Positions 1,864-38,086 of a DNA stretch of 64,000 bases are shown here, piece after piece (within the stretch, counting starts at the first letter, position 1; each line of letters begins with the position of its first letter). Under the pieces are notes generated by a model. It did not search any database. It was given only the letters and a program-made list of their open reading frames with translations, and was not told the DNA's origin. A program made the position numbers and the translations under genes. The stretch is from Streptomyces antibioticus (GTDB taxonomy: Bacteria > Actinomycetota > Actinomycetes > Streptomycetales > Streptomycetaceae). The DNA lies in the NCBI RefSeq assembly GCF_001514065.1, contig NZ_KQ948428.1:251525-315524 (forward strand), given 5' to 3'.

Positions 1864-3249
1864 TCAGTGCGCCGCGACGATCTCCTCGCCCGCCTCCATC
1901 GGATGGGTCACGTCCTGCGCGTCGTGCTGCCTGCCCAGGTGGTTGAAGACCAGGTTGAGCGCCACGGCCGCCACGCAGCCCGTCGAGATGCCCGAGTCGA
2001 GCACGATCTTCGCCGTCTCGGGGAACGCATGGTAGAACTCCGGCGCCGTGATGGGGATGATCCCGACGGCCAGCGAGACGGCGACGATCAGGACGTTGTT
2101 GTCCTTGTCGAGGCCGGCTCGCACCAGGGTCTGGATGCCGCTCGCCGCGACCGACCCGAAGAGGACCACACCCGCGCCGCCGAGCACCGGGCGCGGTACG
2201 ACGGCGATGAGCGAGGCGGCCATCGGGCACAGGCCCATCAGGACCAGGAAGGCGCCGCCGGTGGCGACGACGTACCGGCTGCGGATCCTCGTCATCGCGA
2301 CCAGGCCGATGTTCTGGGCGAAGGCGCTGCACATGAAGCCGTTGAAGAGGGGGCTGAGCGCGGAGCCGAGGGTGTCGGCGCGCAGGCCCGCCGCGATGGT
2401 CCGCTCGTCGGCCGGGCGGTCCACGATCTCGCCCAACGCCAGCATGTCCGCGGTCGATTCGGTCATGGAGACCACCATCACCACGATCATCGACACGATC
2501 GCGGCGACCTGGAACTGCGGGGCGCCGAAGTGGAACGGCGTCGGGAAGCCGACCACGTCCGCGTCCGCGACCGGCCCGAAGTCCGTGACACCGAAGGGGA
2601 TCGCGACGAGCGTGCCGACGACCAGGCCGAGCAGCACGGCGATCTGCTTGACGAAGCCGCGGGTGAACCGGCGCAGCAGCAGCACGATCACGAGTGTCGT
2701 GGCCGCGAGGCCCAGATAGGTCGTCGAACCGTAGTCGTCCGCCGCGGGGTTGGGCCCCTGCGCCCAGCCGAAGGCGACCGGCAGCAGGGAGACGCCGATC
2801 AGGGTGATGACCGTACCGGTGACGACCGGTGGGAAGAAGCGGACCGCCTTGCTGAAGAAGGGGGCGGCGAGGAAGCCGAGCAGACCGGCGACGATGACCG
2901 CGCCGAAGATGACCGGCAGCGCGTCGGACTTGTCGTCGGTGGAGGCGACGATCGCCGTCATCGGGGCCACGCCCGCGAAGGTGACGCCGTTGACGAAGGG
3001 CAGCCGGGCGCCGATCTTCCAGACGCCGAGCGTCTGGAGGAAGGTGGCGAGGCCCGCGGTGAAGAGGCAGGCGCCGGTCAGGAAGGTGAGTTCGGTGCCG
3101 GAGAGGCCGACGGCCGCCCCGACTATCAGGGGCGGGGCCACGACTCCCGCATACATGGCGGCCACGTGTTGCAGGCCCGTGGTGGCCATCTTCAGTGCGG
3201 GGAGTTTTTCGTCGACGGGGTGGATCGCGTCGGCTCGTTGGGCGGTCAC
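1864..3249 (-). CDS. NCS2 uracil/xanthine-type permease
   Basis: The 461-residue polytopic membrane protein belongs to the nucleobase:cation symporter-2 family (UapA/PbuX/UacT-like), with about 12-14 hydrophobic segments. The central MTESTADMLALGEI stretch (roughly residues 260-280) corresponds to the substrate-binding region of the family, and the length is normal. Uric acid or xanthine is the likely cargo because the gene lies just downstream of the uricase and 8-oxoguanine deaminase genes on the same strand. The GTG start at 3249 follows a GGAGG ribosome site. A terminator at 3431-3458 and a palindrome at 3273-3290 suggest its own promoter. Exact substrate specificity is inferred. Confidence 0.87.
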   Translation of the reverse strand: MTAQRADAIHPVDEKLPALKMATTGLQHVAAMYAGVVAPPLIVGAAVGLSGTELTFLTGACLFTAGLATFLQTLGVWKIGARLPFVNGVTFAGVAPMTAIVASTDDKSDALPVIFGAVIVAGLLGFLAAPFFSKAVRFFPPVVTGTVITLIGVSLLPVAFGWAQGPNPAADDYGSTTYLGLAATTLVIVLLLRRFTRGFVKQIAVLLGLVVGTLVAIPFGVTDFGPVADADVVGFPTPFHFGAPQFQVAAIVSMIVVMVVSMTESTADMLALGEIVDRPADERTIAAGLRADTLGSALSPLFNGFMCSAFAQNIGLVAMTRIRSRYVVATGGAFLVLMGLCPMAASLIAVVPRPVLGGAGVVLFGSVAASGIQTLVRAGLDKDNNVLIVAVSLAVGIIPITAPEFYHAFPETAKIVLDSGISTGCVAAVALNLVFNHLGRQHDAQDVTHPMEAGEEIVAAH

Positions 3250-3472: not shown

Positions 3473-4855
3473 TCAGCCCTGCGCGGCGATCCGCGCCAGC
3501 CGCTGCGCCTGCTCCCGCGTGGAGCGCGCGATCGCGTCCTCGTCGACGTGCAACAGGCGGTTGTCCTCGACGATCTGACGGCCATTCACGAAGGAGGCCG
3601 TGACCGGGGCCGCCGCGCCGAAGACCAGCGCGGTCACCGGGTCGGCGATGGAGGCGTGGGCGAGCGTGTCCAGCTTCCACAGCACCAGGTCGGCGAGCTT
3701 GCCGGCCTCCAGGGAGCCGATCTCGGCGGCGCGGCCCAGGACCTGGGCGCCGCCGTACGTGCCCAGGCGCAGCGCCTGACGGGCGTTGAGCGCCGCTTCC
3801 CGGTGGGCGCCGAGGCGGTTGATGAGGAGCGCGTTGCGCAGCTCGGTGTGGAGTTCGCCGGACTCGTTGGAGGCGGTGCCGTCGACACCGAGGCCGACCG
3901 GGACGCCGGCGGCGAGCATGTCGGGGACGCGGGCGATGCCGGCGGCGAGGCGGGCGTTGGAGGACGGGCAGTGGGCGACACCGGTCTTCGTGCGGGCGAA
4001 GGCGGCGATGTCGGAGTCGTTCATGTGGACGCAGTGCGCCATCCACACGTCCTCGCCGAGCCAGCCGGTGGACTCGAAGTAGTCGGTCGGGCCCATCCCG
4101 AACAGTTCCTTGCAGAACTGCTCCTCCTCGACGGTCTCCGAGCCGTGCGTGTGCAGGCGCACCCCGAGACGGCGGGCCAACTCGGCACCCTCCCGCAGGA
4201 GTTCGGTGGAGACGGAGAAGGGCGAGCAGGGCGCGACGGCGACCTGGGTCATCGCGTCGAAGGAGGCGTCGTGGTGCTCCTTGACGGTGGCCTCGGTCGC
4301 GGCGAGGGCGCCTTCGAGCGTCTCGACGGCGAAGTCCGGGGGCAGGCCGCCGTCCTTCTCGCTGCGGTCCATGGAGCCGCGGGCGAGGGTGAAGCGGACG
4401 CCCATCTCGCGGGCGGCGCGGATGATCGAGCCGGACAGGTCGCCGGAGTTCTGCGGGAAGACGTAGTGGTGGTCCATGGCGGTGGTGACACCGCCGCGGG
4501 CCATCATGGCCAGCGAGCCCTGCGCGGCCGAGTAGGTCATCGACTCGTCGATGCGCGCCCAGGTCGGGTACAGCGCGACGAGCCAGTTGAAGAGGTTGTG
4601 GTCGGTGGCCAGGCCCCGGGTGATCCACTGGTAGAAGTGGTGGTGGGTGTTGACCAGACCGGGGGTCACGAGATGGCCGGTGGCGTCGATGCGGCGTACG
4701 ACGTTCTCCAGGCCCTCGGGGGCCTTGCCCGCGCCGAGCGCCTCGATGCGGTTGCCGGCGATGACGACGTATCCGCTCGCGTACTCGGTGTCGTGCGCGT
4801 CGACGGTCGCGATCGAACAGTTCTCGATGACGATGCGCTGGGCTGCTGCTGCCAT
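3473..4855 (-). CDS. 8-oxoguanine deaminase (amidohydrolase)
   Basis: The 460-residue protein is a metal-dependent amidohydrolase of the 8-oxoguanine/guanine deaminase and TrzN-like group. It shows the N-terminal metal site NTHHHFYQW (about 69-77), the HTHGSET motif, the HCVHMND motif and the late Asp in GVDGTASNESGEL. Streptomyces relatives with this pattern are named 8-oxoguanine deaminase, converting 8-oxoguanine to urate; plain guanine deaminase activity cannot be excluded. The ATG at 4855 has a good AAAGGA site nine bases upstream, so a longer frame beginning at 4948 is not needed. It is the last gene of the uraD-uraH-uricase operon and would feed urate straight to uricase. Confidence 0.85.
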   Translation of the reverse strand: MAAAAQRIVIENCSIATVDAHDTEYASGYVVIAGNRIEALGAGKAPEGLENVVRRIDATGHLVTPGLVNTHHHFYQWITRGLATDHNLFNWLVALYPTWARIDESMTYSAAQGSLAMMARGGVTTAMDHHYVFPQNSGDLSGSIIRAAREMGVRFTLARGSMDRSEKDGGLPPDFAVETLEGALAATEATVKEHHDASFDAMTQVAVAPCSPFSVSTELLREGAELARRLGVRLHTHGSETVEEEQFCKELFGMGPTDYFESTGWLGEDVWMAHCVHMNDSDIAAFARTKTGVAHCPSSNARLAAGIARVPDMLAAGVPVGLGVDGTASNESGELHTELRNALLINRLGAHREAALNARQALRLGTYGGAQVLGRAAEIGSLEAGKLADLVLWKLDTLAHASIADPVTALVFGAAAPVTASFVNGRQIVEDNRLLHVDEDAIARSTREQAQRLARIAAQG

Positions 4856-4957
4856 GGTTTCGTCCTTTGCGCTTCGGTGGAGAGGGCACGGCAGGACCCC
4901 GGTGATTTGAGTGCCGCGGCCCGCACAGGCGGGCCGCGGGTGCCGCAATGGAGTTGA

Positions 4958-5881
4958 TCAGAGGTTGGTGAGGTCCACCGGGATCTTCGGCTCGCAGCCG
5001 TCCCGCAGGATCGTCGCCTCGATCAGGCCGTAGGGCCGGTCCGCGGCGAAGTACACCTCGTTGTCGTTCTTGAGCCCGAACGGCTCCAGGTCCACCAGGA
5101 AGTGGTGCTTGTTCGGGAGGGAGAAGCGGACCTCGTCGATCTCGCTGCGGTTGTTGATGATCCGCGAACCCATTTGGTACAGGGTCTGCTGGAGCGAGAG
5201 GGAGTAGGTCTCGGCGAAGGCCTGGAGCATGTGCTTCCTGGTCTGCTCGTAGGACTTCTCCCAGTTGGGCATCCGCTGCTCGTCGTCGGTCCAGTTGAAC
5301 CGCCAGCGGCCGGAGACCTGGGTGGCCAGGATGCGGTCGTACGCCTCCTGGAGCGTCGTGTACTTGTCCTTGACGTAGCCCCAGAACTCGGAGTTGGTCG
5401 AGTTCATCACGACCAGGTCCTTCAGCCCCGAGATGACCTCCCACGACGAGCCGTCATAGGTGATCTGCGTGACCCGGGTCTCCTGGCCCTTGCGCACGAA
5501 CGAGTGCTTGACCTCGTCCGCGCCGATGAACTGCGAGTTGGCGTCGGAGGCTTCGATGCGCTCCCACGCGTACTCCTCGATCCGGATCCGGGCGACCTTG
5601 ATCGGCTCCTGCGAGGTCACGAAGTGCCGCGCCAGGTGGATGCCGAACTGCTCGGCCGACTCGATGCCGTGCTCCTTGGCGAACGCGTACACCGTGTTCT
5701 TGGTGGTGTCGGTCGGCAGCACGTTGGCGTTGGAGCCGGAGTAGTGGACCTCGTCCATGTCGCCGCTCAGCGCGACGGACACGTTCAGGTCCTTGATGTG
5801 ATGGGTGGCGCCGTCCCGCGTGATCTTTACGACTCGGTTCTCGGCCTTGCCGTACTGGTTCTGTCCCAGAATCGTGGGCAT
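4958..5881 (-). CDS. urate oxidase (uricase)
   Basis: The 307-residue cofactor-free uricase oxidises urate with O2 to 5-hydroxyisourate and releases H2O2. Lys12 and Thr57 (in NVLPTDTTKNT) match the catalytic Lys/Thr pair of the family, and the length is standard. The ATG at 5881 follows a GAGGGAG ribosome site; the frame continues upstream into the uraH gene but only as a shadow. The gene lies 7 nt downstream of uraH, and its product is the substrate of UraH. The peroxide it makes gives context to the catalase at 9638, which shares the operon's candidate operator. Confidence 0.95.
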   Translation of the reverse strand: MPTILGQNQYGKAENRVVKITRDGATHHIKDLNVSVALSGDMDEVHYSGSNANVLPTDTTKNTVYAFAKEHGIESAEQFGIHLARHFVTSQEPIKVARIRIEEYAWERIEASDANSQFIGADEVKHSFVRKGQETRVTQITYDGSSWEVISGLKDLVVMNSTNSEFWGYVKDKYTTLQEAYDRILATQVSGRWRFNWTDDEQRMPNWEKSYEQTRKHMLQAFAETYSLSLQQTLYQMGSRIINNRSEIDEVRFSLPNKHHFLVDLEPFGLKNDNEVYFAADRPYGLIEATILRDGCEPKIPVDLTNL

Positions 5882-5888
5882 GTGTCTG

Positions 5889-6287
5889 CTAGCTCCCTCG
5901 GTAAACGGAGTAGCCGAACGGGTTGAGCAGCAGCGGTACGTGATAGTGCTCCCCGGGCTCGACGGCGAAGGTGATCGCCACTTCCGGGAAGAACACTGCC
6001 CCTGCACCGCTGTCCCGATTCGCGGGGGCGTCCTGCTGCGCATCGGCTTGCTTCTTCTCGAAGTACGGCTCCACCGCGAAGTCGAGCCGTACGTGTGTGG
6101 TGCCCTCCGGCAGGGCCGGCAGGTCCTTGCACCGCCCGTCCGCGTCGGTCGCGCTGCCGCCGAGCGCCTGCCAGTCCGCATCCGCACCCTGGCGGGCGGA
6201 CAGCTGGACGGCGACTGCCTCGGCGGGGCGGCCGATGCTGGTGTCCAGGATGTGGGTGGACACCGAGGCGGTGGTGCTGGTGCTCAT
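5889..6287 (-). CDS. uraH: 5-hydroxyisourate hydrolase (transthyretin-like)
   Basis: The 132-residue transthyretin-related enzyme hydrolyses 5-hydroxyisourate to OHCU. It carries the N-terminal STHILDTSIGRPA motif (His12), an Arg in HVRLDF, the HYH pair at about 114-116 and the diagnostic C-terminal YRGS. The stretch at about 82-97 (KKQADAQQDAPANRDS) is a hydrophilic loop longer than in many homologues. The ATG at 6287 lies 6 nt after the uraD stop, so the two genes are almost certainly co-transcribed with uricase. Cytoplasmic location is inferred from the lack of a signal peptide. Confidence 0.93.
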   Translation of the reverse strand: MSTSTTASVSTHILDTSIGRPAEAVAVQLSARQGADADWQALGGSATDADGRCKDLPALPEGTTHVRLDFAVEPYFEKKQADAQQDAPANRDSGAGAVFFPEVAITFAVEPGEHYHVPLLLNPFGYSVYRGS

Positions 6288-6293
6288 GCTGCG

Positions 6294-6821
6294 TCAGTCC
6301 TCTTCGACGAGTCGGGCGAGCCGGATGCGGTTGATCTTGCCCAGCTCGGTGCGGACGATCTCCCGCTCCTGCTCCGGCGCGTTCCCGATCCGCTCCTTGA
6401 CCGCGTCCCGCATCTGCTCGCCGGTCCGGCCGGTCGCGCAGATCAGGAAGACATGGCCGAACTTCTCCTGGTAGGCGAGGTTCAGCTCCAGCATCTCCGC
6501 CTTGAGCTCCTCCGTCGCGCCGGCCATGCCGCGCTGTTCACGGGCGGAGGTCGGGTCGCCCTCCTTGGGGCGGCCGATGGGCGGGTGTCCGGCCATCGCC
6601 TCGGCGAGGTCCTCGGCGGTCAGTTCGGCCATCGCGGCGTCGCTGGCGGCGTAGAGGTCGTCGCCGCTGGTGTAGGGGCGGGCGGCGAGCAGTCGCCGCA
6701 CCCATGCCGTGGAGGCACACGCCTCGTGGAGGGCGGCGAAGGCCGCGTGCTCCTCCAGGGCGTTGAACCGGGTCAGGCCCGGCGGCGTGGATGTCGAAGT
6801 CACGGGAGCCTCCGTGGCCAT
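6294..6821 (-). CDS. uraD: OHCU decarboxylase
   Basis: The 175-residue protein decarboxylates 2-oxo-4-hydroxy-4-carboxy-5-ureidoimidazoline to S-allantoin. The family signature is present: His79 in AGHPPIGRP, followed by SAREQ (about 92-96). I prefer the ATG at 6821 over a GTG at 6866. The GTG begins on the last base of a TTGACG -35 box, upstream of the predicted transcript start, and that reading would include a rare TTA codon. It is the first gene of the operon, and the TCAACA-N3-TGTTGA operator overlaps its promoter. Confidence 0.92.
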   Translation of the reverse strand: MATEAPVTSTSTPPGLTRFNALEEHAAFAALHEACASTAWVRRLLAARPYTSGDDLYAASDAAMAELTAEDLAEAMAGHPPIGRPKEGDPTSAREQRGMAGATEELKAEMLELNLAYQEKFGHVFLICATGRTGEQMRDAVKERIGNAPEQEREIVRTELGKINRIRLARLVEED

Positions 6822-6841: not shown

Positions 6842-6882
6842 TAGCTAACGCCCTTCGAAACACCACGTCAACACTTTGTTGA
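6842..6882 (-). promoter_or_regulatory. uraD operon promoter with palindromic operator
   Basis: On the minus strand, TTGACG (6871-6866) is followed after 17-18 bases by TTAGCT/TAGCTA (6848-6842). The perfect palindrome TCAACA-CTT-TGTTGA occupies 6868-6882 and covers the -35 box. The same palindrome in the same position lies before the catalase gene at 9539-9553. Repression by a shared regulator is the natural inference. Confidence 0.65.
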
Positions 6883-6926
6883 AAATTCGGGGTTACATCG
6901 GCGACCCCGTGAAGGACCTCGAAGGA

Positions 6927-7292
6927 TCAGCCCTTGTCACGGTTCAAGTAGTTGTAGACCGTGAACCGGCTAACCCCGAGCGCGCTCGCCACGGTCTCCA
7001 CGCCGTGCCGTACGGAGAAGGCGCCACGCGCCTCCAGTATGCGCACGACCTCCTGCTTGGCCTTGCGGTCCAGGTCGGCCAGCGGCTTGCCCTGCTTGCG
7101 CTCCATGGCGGCGAGGATGTGATCGAGGGAGTCCGCGAGCTGCGGCAGGCGTACGGCGACCACGTCGGCGCCCTCCCAGGCCAGCACGACGTCGTCGGGG
7201 CCGGCCTCGTCCGGCGGGACCATCTCCCCGCCCATGGCGTCGACCAGCGGCTTCACGGCCGTGATGAAGGGTTCGTCCCCGGTGCCGGTCAC
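6927..7292 (-). CDS. HTH_22 (DauR/YheO-like C-terminal) DNA-binding protein
   Basis: The 121-residue protein has a C-terminal helix-turn-helix (about 78-119; EVVRILEARGAF then ALGVSRFTVYNYLNR) matching the HTH_22 domain found at the end of YheO/DauR regulators. The usual N-terminal YheO PAS-like domain is replaced by about 70 residues with no clear motif. The GTG start at 7292 overlaps the stop of the upstream gene by 4 nt (GTGA), so the two are translationally coupled. Sitting between the uricase operon and hyi, it is a candidate regulator of one of them; that is inference. Confidence 0.7.
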   Translation of the reverse strand: MTGTGDEPFITAVKPLVDAMGGEMVPPDEAGPDDVVLAWEGADVVAVRLPQLADSLDHILAAMERKQGKPLADLDRKAKQEVVRILEARGAFSVRHGVETVASALGVSRFTVYNYLNRDKG

Positions 7293-7546
7293 TTCTCGCC
7301 CTCCCCGATCACGTTGACCTGAAGCGAGATACGGGTGGCACCGGCCGCCAGGCTCTTGCGCAGCAGCGCGTCGACAGCGGAGAGCACGGCCTCGGCGCCG
7401 CCTTCCGCGGTGTTGCCGAACGGGCCGACATCGACCGCGTCCAGCTCGGCCGCCTCGACCACCTCACGGGCCGCGACCGCGTGCGCGGGCGCCTCGTCCA
7501 GGTCGAAGGGCTCGGTCGTGAACTCCACTCTCAATCGCACGCGCAC
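7289..7546 (-). CDS. MTH1187/YkoF-like thiamine-binding family protein
   Basis: The 85-residue protein matches the small ferredoxin-fold family MTH1187 (PF01910), whose members bind thiamine or related pyrimidines: an N-terminal strand RLRVEFTTEPF, a central VGPFGNTAEGG turn (typically a TP-x-GT-x-IEG motif), then a helix and GATRISLQVNV. The annotated GTG is 7546. A second GTG at 7540 lies six bases after TAGGTT and may be a leaderless start (83 residues). It is coupled to the HTH_22 gene. Gcl, made from a nearby gene, needs thiamine diphosphate, so a cofactor-sensing link is possible but unproven. Confidence 0.6.
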   Translation of the reverse strand: MRVRLRVEFTTEPFDLDEAPAHAVAAREVVEAAELDAVDVGPFGNTAEGGAEAVLSAVDALLRKSLAAGATRISLQVNVIGEGEK

Positions 7547-7582
7547 AACCTAACGCGCGGCACCGACTTCCGCCGAGCCCTC

Positions 7583-7612
7583 TTGACAAGCGACGAGACC
7601 CGACGGCAATCT
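7583..7612 (+). promoter_or_regulatory. hyi-glxR promoter
   Basis: TTGACA (7583-7588) is an exact -35 consensus, followed after 18 bases by CAATCT (7607-7612). Transcription would start near 7619, ahead of the operator at 7633-7647. Confidence 0.6.
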
Positions 7613-7632
7613 TCCATTAAGCAGAAACGAAC

Positions 7633-7647
7633 TTCCGCAATACGGAA
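7633..7647. promoter_or_regulatory. TTCCG-N5-CGGAA operator of hyi
   Basis: TTCCGCAATACGGAA is a 15-bp palindrome about 14 bases past the predicted start site. The reverse complement is repeated exactly at 13743-13757 before gcl. It resembles operators of IclR-type regulators such as AllR-like proteins; the assignment is inference. Confidence 0.65.
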
Positions 7648-7677
7648 TCACTCGACACGGAAGGGAGCGCAGCGCCG

Positions 7678-8517
7678 ATGCCCGCTTTTAAATGGGACAC
7701 AGCCGCAGACCAGCGCTTCAACGTCAACCTGTCGATCCTCTTCACGGAACTCCCGCTCCTGGAGCGCCCCGCGGCCGCCGCCGCGGCCGGCTTCACCGCG
7801 GTCGAGCTGTGGTGGCCCTGGGTCGACTCCCCCACTCCCGAGCAGTCCGAGCTCGACGCCCTGAAGCAGGCGATCGAGGACGCGGGCGTCCAGCTCACGG
7901 GCCTGAACTTCTACGCCGGACAGCTGCCCGGCCCCGACCGCGGCGCCCTGTCGATCCCGGGCGAGGAGTCGGAGAAGTTCCGCGCCAACATCGAGGTGGC
8001 CGCGGACTTCGCCCAATCGCTGGGCTGCAAGGCGCTCAACGCCCTGTACGGCAACCGCGTCGACGGCGTCGACCCGGCCGCGCAGGACGCGCTCGCGCTG
8101 GAGAACCTGGTCCTCGCGGCCCGCGCGGCCGACCGGATCGGCGCGATCCTTCTCATCGAGACGCTGAACAAGCCCGAGTCGCCGCGCTACCCGCTGGTGA
8201 GCGCACCGGCCGCGATCGGGATCGTCGACAAGGTCAACGACGCGACGGGCCTCGGCAACGCCAAGTTCCTCATGGACCTCTACCACCTGTCCATGAACGG
8301 CGAGGACCTGCCGGCGGTGATCGAGGAGTACGCCGCGAAGACCGGCCATGTGCAGATCGCCGACAACCCGGGCCGCGGCGCGCCGGGGACCGGCTCGCTG
8401 CCCCTCGAAGACCTCCTCGACCAGCTGAGGAAGGCGGGTTACGACGGCTGGGTCGGCCTTGAGTACAAGCCGGGCGACCGCCCGAGCGCCGAGGCCTTCG
8501 ACTGGCTGCCCCGCTGA
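7678..8517 (+). CDS. hyi: hydroxypyruvate isomerase
   Basis: The 279-residue TIM-barrel protein of the xylose-isomerase-like Hyi family interconverts hydroxypyruvate and tartronate semialdehyde. Visible family features are NVNLSILFTELP near the start, LIETLNKPE around 160-170 (metal-binding Glu), FLMDLYHLSMNGED around 198-210 and GLEYKPG near the C-terminus. The ATG at 7678 follows a GAAGGGAG site. It heads an operon with glxR 28 nt downstream. The promoter and 15-bp operator just upstream match those of gcl, so the three enzymes are probably one glyoxylate-induced set. Confidence 0.9.
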   Translation: MPAFKWDTAADQRFNVNLSILFTELPLLERPAAAAAAGFTAVELWWPWVDSPTPEQSELDALKQAIEDAGVQLTGLNFYAGQLPGPDRGALSIPGEESEKFRANIEVAADFAQSLGCKALNALYGNRVDGVDPAAQDALALENLVLAARAADRIGAILLIETLNKPESPRYPLVSAPAAIGIVDKVNDATGLGNAKFLMDLYHLSMNGEDLPAVIEEYAAKTGHVQIADNPGRGAPGTGSLPLEDLLDQLRKAGYDGWVGLEYKPGDRPSAEAFDWLPR

Positions 8518-8545
8518 CCCCCTTTACGTGAAAGGCACCCCCATC

Positions 8546-9439
8546 ATGAGCAACACCCTTCCGAAGATCGCCTGGATAGGCCTCGGCATCATGGGCTCCC
8601 CCATGTCCGAGAACCTCATCAAGGCGGGTTACGACGTCACCGGCTTCACGCTGGAGCAGGACAAGCTGGACCGCCTGGCCGCCGCCGGGGGCAAGGCCGC
8701 CGCCTCGATCGCCGAGGCCGTGCGGGGCGCCGACGTGGTCATCACGATGGTGCCCGCATCGCCGCAGGTCGAGGCCATCGCGTACGGCCCGGACGGCATC
8801 CTGGAGAACGCGAAGTCCGGCGCCCTGCTGATCGACATGTCCTCGATCACCCCGCAGACCTCGGTGGACCTCGCGAAGGCCGCCCAGGACAAGGGCATCC
8901 GCGTCCTGGACGCCCCGGTTTCCGGCGGTGAGGCGGGCGCCATCGAGGCCGTGCTGTCGATCATGGTCGGCGGTGAGCAGGCCGACTTCGAGGCCGCCAA
9001 GCCGATCCTGGACGCACTCGGCAAGACCATCGTGCTGTGCGGTCCGCACGGCTCGGGGCAGACCGTGAAGGCCGCCAACCAGCTGATCGTCGCCGTGAAC
9101 ATCCAGGCGTGCGCCGAGGCCGTGGTCTTCCTGGAGAAGTCCGGCGTGGACCTGAAGGCCGCGCTCGACGTCCTCAACGGCGGCCTCGCCGGCTCGACCG
9201 TGCTGACGCGCAAGAAGGACAACTTCCTCCAGCGCGACTTCAAGCCGGGCTTCCGCATCGACCTCCACCACAAGGACATGGGCATCGTCACCGACGCCGC
9301 CCGCAACGTCGGCGCGGCCCTGCCCGTCGGCGCCGTGGTCGCCCAGCTGGTCGCGTCCCTGCGCGCCCAGGGCGACGGGGGCCTGGACCACTCCGCACTG
9401 CTGCGCGCGGTCGAGCGCCTCTCCGGCGCCCAGATCTGA
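8546..9439 (+). CDS. glxR: 2-hydroxy-3-oxopropionate (tartronate semialdehyde) reductase
   Basis: The 297-residue beta-hydroxyacid dehydrogenase reduces tartronate semialdehyde to D-glycerate. It shows the N-terminal Rossmann motif WIGLGIMGSPM, the substrate-binding DAPVSGGEAGA segment (about 120-130) and the catalytic Lys in GSGQTVKAANQLI (about 170-182). The ATG at 8546 with a GAAAGG site is preferred over an upstream in-frame start at 8459 that lies inside hyi. It is co-transcribed with hyi and works on the product of Gcl. Glycerate kinase, the next step, is not in the window. Confidence 0.92.
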   Translation: MSNTLPKIAWIGLGIMGSPMSENLIKAGYDVTGFTLEQDKLDRLAAAGGKAAASIAEAVRGADVVITMVPASPQVEAIAYGPDGILENAKSGALLIDMSSITPQTSVDLAKAAQDKGIRVLDAPVSGGEAGAIEAVLSIMVGGEQADFEAAKPILDALGKTIVLCGPHGSGQTVKAANQLIVAVNIQACAEAVVFLEKSGVDLKAALDVLNGGLAGSTVLTRKKDNFLQRDFKPGFRIDLHHKDMGIVTDAARNVGAALPVGAVVAQLVASLRAQGDGGLDHSALLRAVERLSGAQI

Positions 9440-9538
9440 CGCACGGCACCCAGACCCCGGGCGGCGCACGCTGCTGACACCTGTCCTGTCGCGCCCAAGC
9501 GGCGGCGCCGCCCGGTATCAACGCATCGCCGATCATCT

Positions 9539-9579
9539 TCAACAAACTGTTGACGTCCAGATCGCCCCAAACCTAGGCT
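9539..9579 (+). promoter_or_regulatory. catalase promoter with palindromic operator
   Basis: The palindrome TCAACA-AAC-TGTTGA (9539-9553) overlaps a TTGACG -35 box (9550-9555). An 18-base spacer leads to TAGGCT (9574-9579). Spacing and overlap match the uraD promoter, and 17 of 19 bases around the palindrome are the same. This argues for one regulator acting on both. Confidence 0.65.
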
Positions 9580-9637: not shown

Positions 9638-11095
9638 ATGTCGAAGCGCGTGCTGACGACCGAGTCCGGCGCCCCGGTCGCCGACAACCAGAATTCCGCC
9701 TCCGCCGGTGTCGGCGGTCCGCTCCTCCTCCAGGACCAGCACCTGCTGGAGAAGCTCGCCCGCTTCAACCGCGAGCGCATCCCGGAGCGCGTGGTGCACG
9801 CCCGTGGCAGCGGCGCGTACGGCTACTTCGAGGTGACCGACGACGTCACCGGGTTCACGCACGCCGACTTCCTGAACAGCGTCGGCAAGCGCACCGAGGT
9901 CTTCCTGCGCTTCTCCACGGTGGCGGACTCGCTCGGCGGTGCGGACGCGGTGCGCGACCCGCGCGGCTTCGCGGTCAAGTTCTATACGGAAGAGGGCAAT
10001 TACGACCTCGTCGGCAACAACACCCCGGTGTTCTTCATCAAGGACCCGATCAAGTTCCCCGACTTCATCCACTCGCAGAAGCGCGACCCGTTCACGGGCC
10101 GTCAGGAGCCGGACAACGTCTGGGACTTCTGGGCGCACGCCCCGGAGGCCACGCACCAGGTGACCTGGCTGATGGGCGACCGCGGCATTCCGGCCTCGTA
10201 CCGCCACATGAACGGCTACGGCTCGCACACCTACCAGTGGACGAACGCCGACGGCGAGGCCTTCTTCGTCAAGTACCACTTCAAGACCAACCAGGGCATC
10301 CGCTGCCTGTCCGCCGAGCAGGGCGCCGAGCTCGCCGGCAAGGACCCCAACTCGCACCAGACGGACCTGCTCCAGGCCATCGAGCGCGGGGTGAACCCCT
10401 CCTGGACCCTCTACGTCCAGCTCATGCCGGCGGCCGAGGCGGCGGACTACCGCTTCAACCCGTTCGACCTCACCAAGGTGTGGCCGCACAAGGACTACCC
10501 GCTCCAGCGCGTGGGCCGCCTCGTCCTCGACCGCAACCCGGACAACGTCTTCGCCGAGGTCGAGCAGGCCGCGTTCTCCCCGAACAACTTCGTGCCGGGC
10601 ATCGGTCCCTCGCCGGACAAGATGCTCCAGGGCCGCCTGTTCGCCTACGCGGACGCCCACCGCTACCGCCTGGGCGTCAACCACACCCAGCTCGCGGTGA
10701 ACGCCCCGAAGGCGACCGTCGCGAACAATTACGGGCGGGACGGCCTCATGGCCACCAACTCCCAGGGCCGCGCCGCGAAGAACTACGAGCCGAACTCCTA
10801 CGACGGCCCGGCGGAGACCGGCCGCCCGCTCTCCGCGCCGCTGGCGGTCAGCGGCTGGACCGGCACGCACGAGGCCGCGCAGCACACCAAGGACGACGAC
10901 TTCTTCCAGGCCGGCGAGCTGTACCGGCTGATGTCGGAGGACGAGAAGTCGCGCCTGGTCGCCAACATCGCCGGCGGCCTCTCCCAGGTCTCCCGCGACG
11001 ACGTGATCGAGAAGAACCTGGCCCACTTCCACGCCGCCGACCCGGAGTACGGCAAGCGCGTGGAGGAGGCGGTCCGCGCCCTGCGCGAGGACTGA
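9638..11095 (+). CDS. katA: monofunctional heme catalase (small subunit, clade 3)
   Basis: The 485-residue catalase converts H2O2 to water and O2. It has the distal His54 ([16 protein letters not shown]), the distal Asn in [13 protein letters not shown], the NADPH-region motifs and the proximal heme Tyr in [14 protein letters not shown]. Its length is typical of small-subunit catalases, and there is no signal peptide. It stands between glxR and gcl but has its own promoter, whose operator matches the uricase operon promoter. That context suggests a dedicated role in removing uricase-derived peroxide, rather than, or in addition to, a general OxyR- or CatR-type stress response. Confidence 0.95.
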
Positions 11096-13725: not shown

Positions 13726-13778
13726 TTCCGTTCTGCGGTTAATTCCGTATTGCGGAAACTAACTTCTACTATCTGGAA
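13726..13778 (-). promoter_or_regulatory. gcl operator cluster
   Basis: The perfect site TTCCGTATTGCGGAA at 13743-13757 is the exact reverse complement of the hyi operator. Imperfect copies flank it at 13726-13740 (TTCCG-N5-CGGTT) and 13764-13778 (TTC-N9-GAA). All three lie at or downstream of the predicted start site near 13774. Confidence 0.65.
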
Positions 13779-38051: not shown

Positions 38052-38086
38052 CCATTGAGTGGATAAGTTTTCCACTGAATGGAAAA
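38052..38086. promoter_or_regulatory. tandem IclR-type operators
   Basis: CCATTGAGTGG (38052-38062) and CCACTGAATGG (38072-38082) share the form CCAyTnArTGG with centres exactly 20 bp apart. The second sits inside the perfect-armed TTTTCCA-CTGAA-TGGAAAA (38068-38086). Two turns of helix between sites suits cooperative dimers. Confidence 0.65.

Follow-up and report, generated by a model that had tools for sequence, protein, structure and literature searches.

The operator and its two promoters

The uricase operon (uraD-uraH-uricase) of Streptomyces antibioticus and a nearby catalase gene carry the same palindrome, TCAACA-N3-TGTTGA, over the -35 box of their promoters, in a 64,000-nucleotide stretch of contig NZ_KQ948428.1 (assembly GCF_001514065.1, positions 251,525 to 315,524 of the forward strand) that was analysed as a whole and is referred to here as the window (Table 1). 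A first-pass annotation of the window, made from its sequence alone, had located these two palindromes and described their right arms as merging into TTGACG; both palindromes are exact at the coordinates given, and the TTGACG hexamer can be read at both promoters. In the direction of the gene, the sites are TTCAACAAAGTGTTGACG (uraD) and TTCAACAAACTGTTGACG (catalase), with one difference in 18. A scan of the window returned two exact matches to the operator, and seven matches with up to two mismatches against 0.38 expected, a number reached by none of 100 shuffles. The whole genome (10.1 Mb) contains four exact copies and none of a reversed control pattern: two are the uraD and catalase promoter sites, 2.7 kb apart, the third lies within the coding part of a MarR-like gene (named by eye), and the fourth is located 10 nucleotides 5' of the start of a PF04126 cyclophilin-like gene.

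The TAG-type -10 box that the first-pass annotation placed 18 bases beyond each -35 box is clear only for catalase. The putative -10 box of catalase, TAGGCT, is good, and TAGGCT or TACGCT occurs in many of the aligned loci (by eye, uncounted); that of uraD is weak, because only TTAGCT at 17 nucleotides or TAGCTA at 18 nucleotides is readable. The start of uraD is most likely the ATG at 6821, since the alternative GTG at 6866 would place the -10 box within the gene. An E. coli-type promoter scan found no promoter at either operator, a result that says little for Streptomyces.

Conservation of the operator in Streptomyces

Conservation was scored in 81 loci, consisting of the window and the best 80 of 517 uricase loci, all titled Streptomyces. 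Upstream of uraD the operator is exact in all 81; upstream of catalase it is exact in 57 of the 59 loci that could be scored, the other two having one and three mismatches. Information content was computed from 80 uraD and 57 catalase rows with at most one mismatch (L035 was dropped): in the catalase promoters almost all columns of TTCAACAAAsTGTTGACG reach about 2 bits, against mostly less than 1 bit around it, and the flanks of the uraD site are moderately conserved themselves. For the remaining eight cluster genes, no exact copy was found within 250 bases 5' of any scored start in the 81 loci. The DNA signal that the two promoters share is genuine and highly conserved. The first-pass annotation had expected the same operator at both promoters in relatives, and had named absence of the motif there as one observation that would speak against shared control; on the sequence side, the motif is conserved at both promoters in these relatives.

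Association of an HTH_22 protein with the operator

Comparison among genomes strongly favours the HTH_22 protein encoded beside the uraD operator (PF13309, 75 bits versus a cut-off of 29.6) as the best candidate regulator, one of several that the first-pass annotation had put forward. In a draw of 296 class-level genomes, orthologues of this protein were strong in 28 of 31 Streptomyces, and some match was found in eight genomes of other genera; uricase is present in 170 of 393 class-level genomes. Among 64 uricase regions, picked by the analyst to include divergent members of Streptomyces, second copies of uricase, and one to a few regions from each other genus, HTH_22 and the exact site occur together in 21, neither occurs in 43, and mixed cases number zero (Fisher p 2e-17, ignoring shared ancestry and the choice of regions). 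The 21 double-positive regions are 16 from Streptomyces and five from other families (f4, f28 twice, f41, and f21), and both states are found within each of families f1, f4, f21, f28, and f41, with genome G228 and the second uricase copies L191-L194 among the negative members. The 43 regions from outside Streptomyces contain five exact sites against 0.005 expected by base composition, all five beside HTH_22. At these five distant loci the operator separates the regulator gene from its neighbour, uraD or uricase. All five retain TTGACG or TTGACC, and a TAnnnT hexamer 17-18 nucleotides on is readable by eye in all except G385. The HTH_22 matches in the distant loci are 52-60% identical and 12 exact bases of the site are kept, which argues against hitch-hiking, short of excluding it. 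The second uricase gene of L191-L194, present in four Streptomyces and 62-65% identical, has no uraD, HTH_22, or exact operator in the fetched region.

Other genes were compared with the site in the same regions. An MTH1187-like gene is nearly as tightly associated as HTH_22 (20 regions with both, one and one apart), and hyi, glxR, and gcl are associated with the site (p ~1e-6) with mixed cases. PucR, another candidate of the first-pass annotation, showed no association (one region with both, six with pucR only, 20 with the site only; p 0.41) in a test that counts only pucR genes within the fetched regions and leaves distant ones outside, and finds no support in these regions. That the operator is bound by an unlinked regulator (PucR, a MarR/HucR-type protein, or another), HTH_22 being a bystander, is improbable, even though many regulators read such palindromes, binding by HTH_22 is a prediction, MarR-type urate sensors are known in other systems, and other genomes hold several exact copies that lack an explanation: such a regulator would not readily account for the joint variation of site and HTH_22 in five families, nor for a copy of the site beside a related regulator in a genome without uricase.

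This genome, G377, has no uricase match. Its region L174:4950-5820 encodes a PAS_6-HTH_22 regulator, a divergent amino-acid permease-like gene, and a downstream D-amino-acid enzyme-like gene (the last two named by eye), with TTCAACACAATGTTGAAA between the regulator and the permease-like gene if the former starts at the ATG that gives 247 residues. The recognition helix of the G377 protein is TRYTVYNYLN and that of the window protein is SRFTVYNYLN, and most paralogues without the site differ there. An RFT-type helix alone is no proof, because four loci (L178, L262, L263, and L270) have such a helix while the DNA fetched there holds no exact copy. Regulators of the YheO/DauR type combine PAS_6 with HTH_22 and share the HTH_22 domain with the window protein, and one of them, in G377, adjoins the same palindrome. 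PAS_6 was found by Pfam in the L174 and L182 proteins and not in the window protein, whose proposed sensor is instead the MTH1187-like protein, separate or fused. The HTH_22 profile had no clear solved relative among structures.

The MTH1187-like partner gene

The MTH1187-like gene, which the first-pass annotation had not pointed out, lies directly 5' of the HTH_22 gene, and its stop codon overlaps the HTH_22 start (GTGA). It was matched in 79 of the 80 named loci, in 78 of them within 200 nucleotides of HTH_22; in L040 unread bases separate the two genes, and in L063 neither was matched. In four genomes of three other families (L172, L173, L220, and L247), the two are a single open frame. The pair is adjacent in further families, namely in L264-L267 and L274 (f64), with a HAD hydrolase beside it in L265 and L266 (names partly by eye), and in reverse order in L270 (f82), beside an allantoinase match and a xanthine dehydrogenase-like open frame (partly by eye). 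With the f64 pairs, the fetched DNA holds no copy of this operator; the pairing may predate its link to purines.

A profile of 39 sequences found as its first structures 1yqh (1e-6), MTH1187 itself (1lxn, 9.7e-5), TM0486 (1vk8, 8.6e-4), and MJ1052 (2eky, 0.0039); 1yqh is titled 'hypothetical', and we take it to belong to the MTH1187 family. The Thiamine_BP domain (PF01910) of the fused proteins scores 41 bits in L172 and L173, above the cut-off of 24.9, and about 20 bits in L220 and L247, below it. The window protein is related by profile to the solved members MTH1187 and TM0486, and differs from them in being paired, and elsewhere fused, with a DNA-binding domain; no thiamine gene was noticed among the named genes here, where no dedicated search was made. 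The MTH1187/DUF77 family, long of unclear role, appears in one paper's list of conserved proteins that are uncharacterised, where it is described as possibly thiamine-binding (PMC6393860), and TM0486 is called thiamin-binding in the title of a cited work. The MTH1187-like gene might merely share the operon and play no regulatory part, since adjacent genes need not interact and the window protein falls below the Pfam cut-off; this is unlikely, given the fusion of the pair in four loci, its adjacency in either order in other families, and the overlap of the coding regions in the window.

Further probable targets and a probable AllR box

A similar site, TTCAAC-N5-GTTGAA, is present in the intergenic region between allantoinase and allR in every one of the 29 loci scored. 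These belong to the 30 genomes with the best scores among 101 and are hence close relatives; the remaining locus, L106, was cut. Against TCAACA-N3-TGTTGA, this copy is exact in one of the 29 and has one mismatch in 28; in the genome of the window it lies ~23 kb from the uraD site. A full operator also stands 8-27 nucleotides before the start codon of the PF04126 cyclophilin-like gene in nine Streptomyces genomes (in L002, gene 1119-1490 on the minus strand, operator 1501-1515), of which eight were fetched because of an extra exact copy and the ninth is the genome of the window. For loss of this site in the absence of HTH_22, a search found nothing in any of 15 genomes and, having no positive control among them, was uninformative. 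In the distant Actinomycete G140, a second operator copy is located between hydantoin racemase-like and xanthine dehydrogenase-like genes (by eye). The malate synthase gene aceB is an uncertain target: one mismatch to TCAAC-N5-GTTGA was found in six of six scorable loci among L100-L129, three in the more distant Streptomyces L195, L196, and L208, and two to four in five non-Streptomyces loci (L202 and L207 had no scorable start, and L206 lacks the gene). Exact copies that fit no known target were also noted in two HTH_22-bearing genomes, at L300:2550-2564 (G140) and L308:2486-2500 (G219), the former with thioesterase-like and symporter-like genes nearby (by eye).

The allantoinase copy bears on whether the operator belongs instead to AllR, an IclR-type protein encoded next to allantoinase that represses the allantoin pathway. 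A close AllR-type gene is present in 99 of 101 Streptomyces genomes, with only a weak match in one more, the operator copy lies in the region between allantoinase and allR, and papers cite AllR as a regulator of the allantoin genes of S. coelicolor. Attribution to AllR is nevertheless very improbable. Within the fetched regions, IclR-type homologues, which the first-pass annotation had also suggested, are not associated with the site (two regions with both, eight with the gene only; p 0.48), although this is a regional test and allR is ~23 kb away in the genome of the window. A different palindrome, TTCCRY-N3-RYGGAA, is found at 14 places in the genome (control 3), including upstream of hyi, gcl, allantoinase, and allR, and at neither uraD nor catalase; its boxes in the allantoinase/allR region of L006 are at 3911-3925 and 4019-4033. 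It resembles the IclR subgroup consensus WTTYCRYW3RYGRAAW (PMC8222616, from an excerpt of that source), and is probably the box of AllR itself, a separate second regulatory layer in the pathway. AllR would share with the proposed regulator the wider pathway and a box 5' of allantoinase, where both kinds occur, and differ in its probable palindrome and in its other targets (hyi and gcl).

The genome G228 also argues against AllR, since it retains AllR (85-86% identity) despite the decay of the operator copy at allantoinase. G228 has kept uricase and has lost HTH_22, the uraD site, and most of the MTH1187-like gene, apparently in one deletion that left a remnant (L190:12325-12500). Its allantoinase copy, ~22 kb from uraD, has two mismatches to TTCAAC-N5-GTTGAA; eight of eight HTH_22-bearing genomes have zero to one mismatch there, and G272, which lacks both uricase and a close orthologue of HTH_22, has five. 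On the absence of regional association, the different palindrome, and the case of G228, AllR is not supported as the regulator of the uraD and catalase operator. A further sequence that fits the IclR-type box, TTCCACTGAATGGAA, was seen at 38070-38084 of the window, in the region from which an IclR-type gene and a short-chain dehydrogenase gene diverge (names by eye).

Table 1. Operators, promoter elements, genes, and IclR/AllR-type boxes of the uricase and catalase region (window coordinates).
Feature	Position	Strand	Remark
Operator 1, TCAACAAAGTGTTGA in uraD direction	6868-6882	-	exact in 81/81 loci
Operator 2, TCAACAAACTGTTGA, 5' of catalase	9539-9553	+	exact in 57/59 scorable loci
-35 box TTGACG, uraD promoter, overlaps right arm of operator	6866-6871	-	conserved
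-35 box TTGACG, catalase promoter, overlaps right arm of operator	9550-9555	+	conserved
Probable -10 box of uraD, TTAGCT, 17 nucleotides on	6843-6848	-	inferred from sequence
Alternative -10 box of uraD, TAGCTA, 18 nucleotides on	6842-6847	-	inferred from sequence
-10 box of catalase, TAGGCT, 18 nucleotides on	9574-9579	+	read from sequence
HTH_22 protein, 121 residues, proposed DNA-binding subunit	6927-7292	-	PF13309; association with operator
MTH1187/Thiamine_BP-like protein, 83 residues, proposed sensor subunit	7289-7540	-	fused to HTH_22 in other loci
uraD, OHCU decarboxylase	6294-6821	-	alternative start 6866
uraH, hydroxyisourate hydrolase	5889-6287	-	
Uricase, H2O2-producing	4958-5881	-	
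Catalase	9638-11095	+	PF00199
Amidohydrolase, guanine/8-oxoguanine deaminase-like (substrate inferred)	3473-4948	-	probably same operon; true start maybe further in
Purine permease-like protein	1864-3249	-	name by eye
IclR/AllR-type box TTCCGCAATACGGAA, 5' of hyi-glxR	7633-7647	+	
IclR/AllR-type box TTCCGCAATACGGAA (read on minus strand), 5' of gcl	13743-13757	-	

A proposed split regulator of urate oxidation and peroxide removal

These patterns make it probable that one split regulator, composed of the HTH_22 protein and the MTH1187-like protein, controls the uricase operon and catalase through the shared operator, to which its binding is predicted. The palindrome TTCAACA-N3-TGTTGA(A/C) would be the operator of the HTH_22 protein acting with the MTH1187-like protein as a split one-component regulator, of which the counterpart in some other Actinomycetes is a single fused protein. 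The MTH1187-like subunit would sense a compound from purine catabolism, at a guess urate or one close to it in the pathway, with a purine such as urate or xanthine as the presumed ligand. A dimer of HTH_22 would cover the -35 box at the uraD-uraH-uricase and catalase promoters and would bind near the allantoinase promoter, keeping these genes repressed as long as the ligand is scarce; once it builds up, the oxidation of urate, the removal of peroxide, and the following pathway step would begin at the same time. We infer from sequence the binding, the complex formation, the ligand, and the sign of control. The first-pass annotation had foreseen one regulator coupling uricase to catalase; the shared operator, placed alike and conserved at both promoters, supports this in part, and the similar sites at allantoinase, cyclophilin-like, and xanthine dehydrogenase-like genes indicate that the coupling is one part of a wider regulon.

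Repression is modestly preferred over activation, because the -35 boxes are near consensus and the cyclophilin-like site is close to the start codon. The opposite reading, in which the HTH_22 protein is an activator that contacts RNA polymerase from about -40, is somewhat doubtful. The operator centre is ~40 nucleotides 5' of the inferred transcription start, a position typical of such activators that fits a repressor equally well, and the -10 box of uraD is weak; against activation, the -35 hexamers inside the operator (TTGACG) are conserved and near consensus, as in promoters that work without help, and the site 8-27 nucleotides before the start codon of the cyclophilin-like gene is in a repressor-like place.

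Published expression data from S. coelicolor, as far as the excerpted sources go, are compatible with shared control: in one comparison SCO6209 (OHCU decarboxylase), SCO6247, and SCO6248 all move the same way (3.11, 2.92, and 2.43, respectively; PMC6629963), and SCO6209-6211 fall together in another (PMC4991794). SCO6208, listed as 'Putative Transposase' in an excerpt of PMC3897704, may by its gene number be the HTH_22 gene, which would make that entry a misannotation. A literature search listed among its matches no work on this operator or on an HTH_22/MTH1187 uricase regulator, a weak negative.

Several observations weigh against control by this split regulator. The regulator gene and the uraD site are neighbours and could be inherited jointly as a block, and among the 43 negative regions, L193 and L222 each contain a copy with one mismatch. 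The catalase arm is not universal, because 22 of the 81 Streptomyces loci have no scorable catalase start beside the cluster (20 without a catalase match in the fetched DNA, some of them on truncated contigs, and two with partial matches only). In G228, the uraD site and HTH_22 went together in one stretch, so that their loss is weak evidence alone, and its decayed allantoinase copy is a single case. Beyond the orthologues counted above, no exact site was found in the fetched DNA of other HTH_22 loci, including those of MTH1187-HTH_22 pairs, and this operator is therefore not a general feature of HTH_22 proteins. Eighteen further exact copies were fetched from other genomes: eight precede the cyclophilin-like gene and 10 are unexplained, most of them inside open frames. 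As for the proposed sensor, the MTH1187-like protein of the window scores 20.1 bits with PF01910 (E 6e-4), below the cut-off, and has no NCBIfam match, and a PDB search with the single fused L172 protein reaches MTH1187 only at E 0.16, ranked below unrelated chains.

Implications

If correct, the split regulator would provide a specific candidate for control of the uricase operon, would explain the co-control of catalase, and would offer a purine-responsive operator with a 15-base-pair core as a useful sensor part; uricase itself is an enzyme of medical use. For the MTH1187/DUF77 family, it would supply a role as the sensor subunit of a transcription factor. The broader proposition, for which the comparisons make an evenly balanced case, is that proteins of the MTH1187 family are detachable ligand-sensing subunits of HTH_22 factors, forming a split or fused one-component regulator that would be widespread in Actinomycetota, and that the version in Streptomyces would use one operator to place the oxidation of urate, the removal of peroxide, and the breakdown of allantoin under a common signal.

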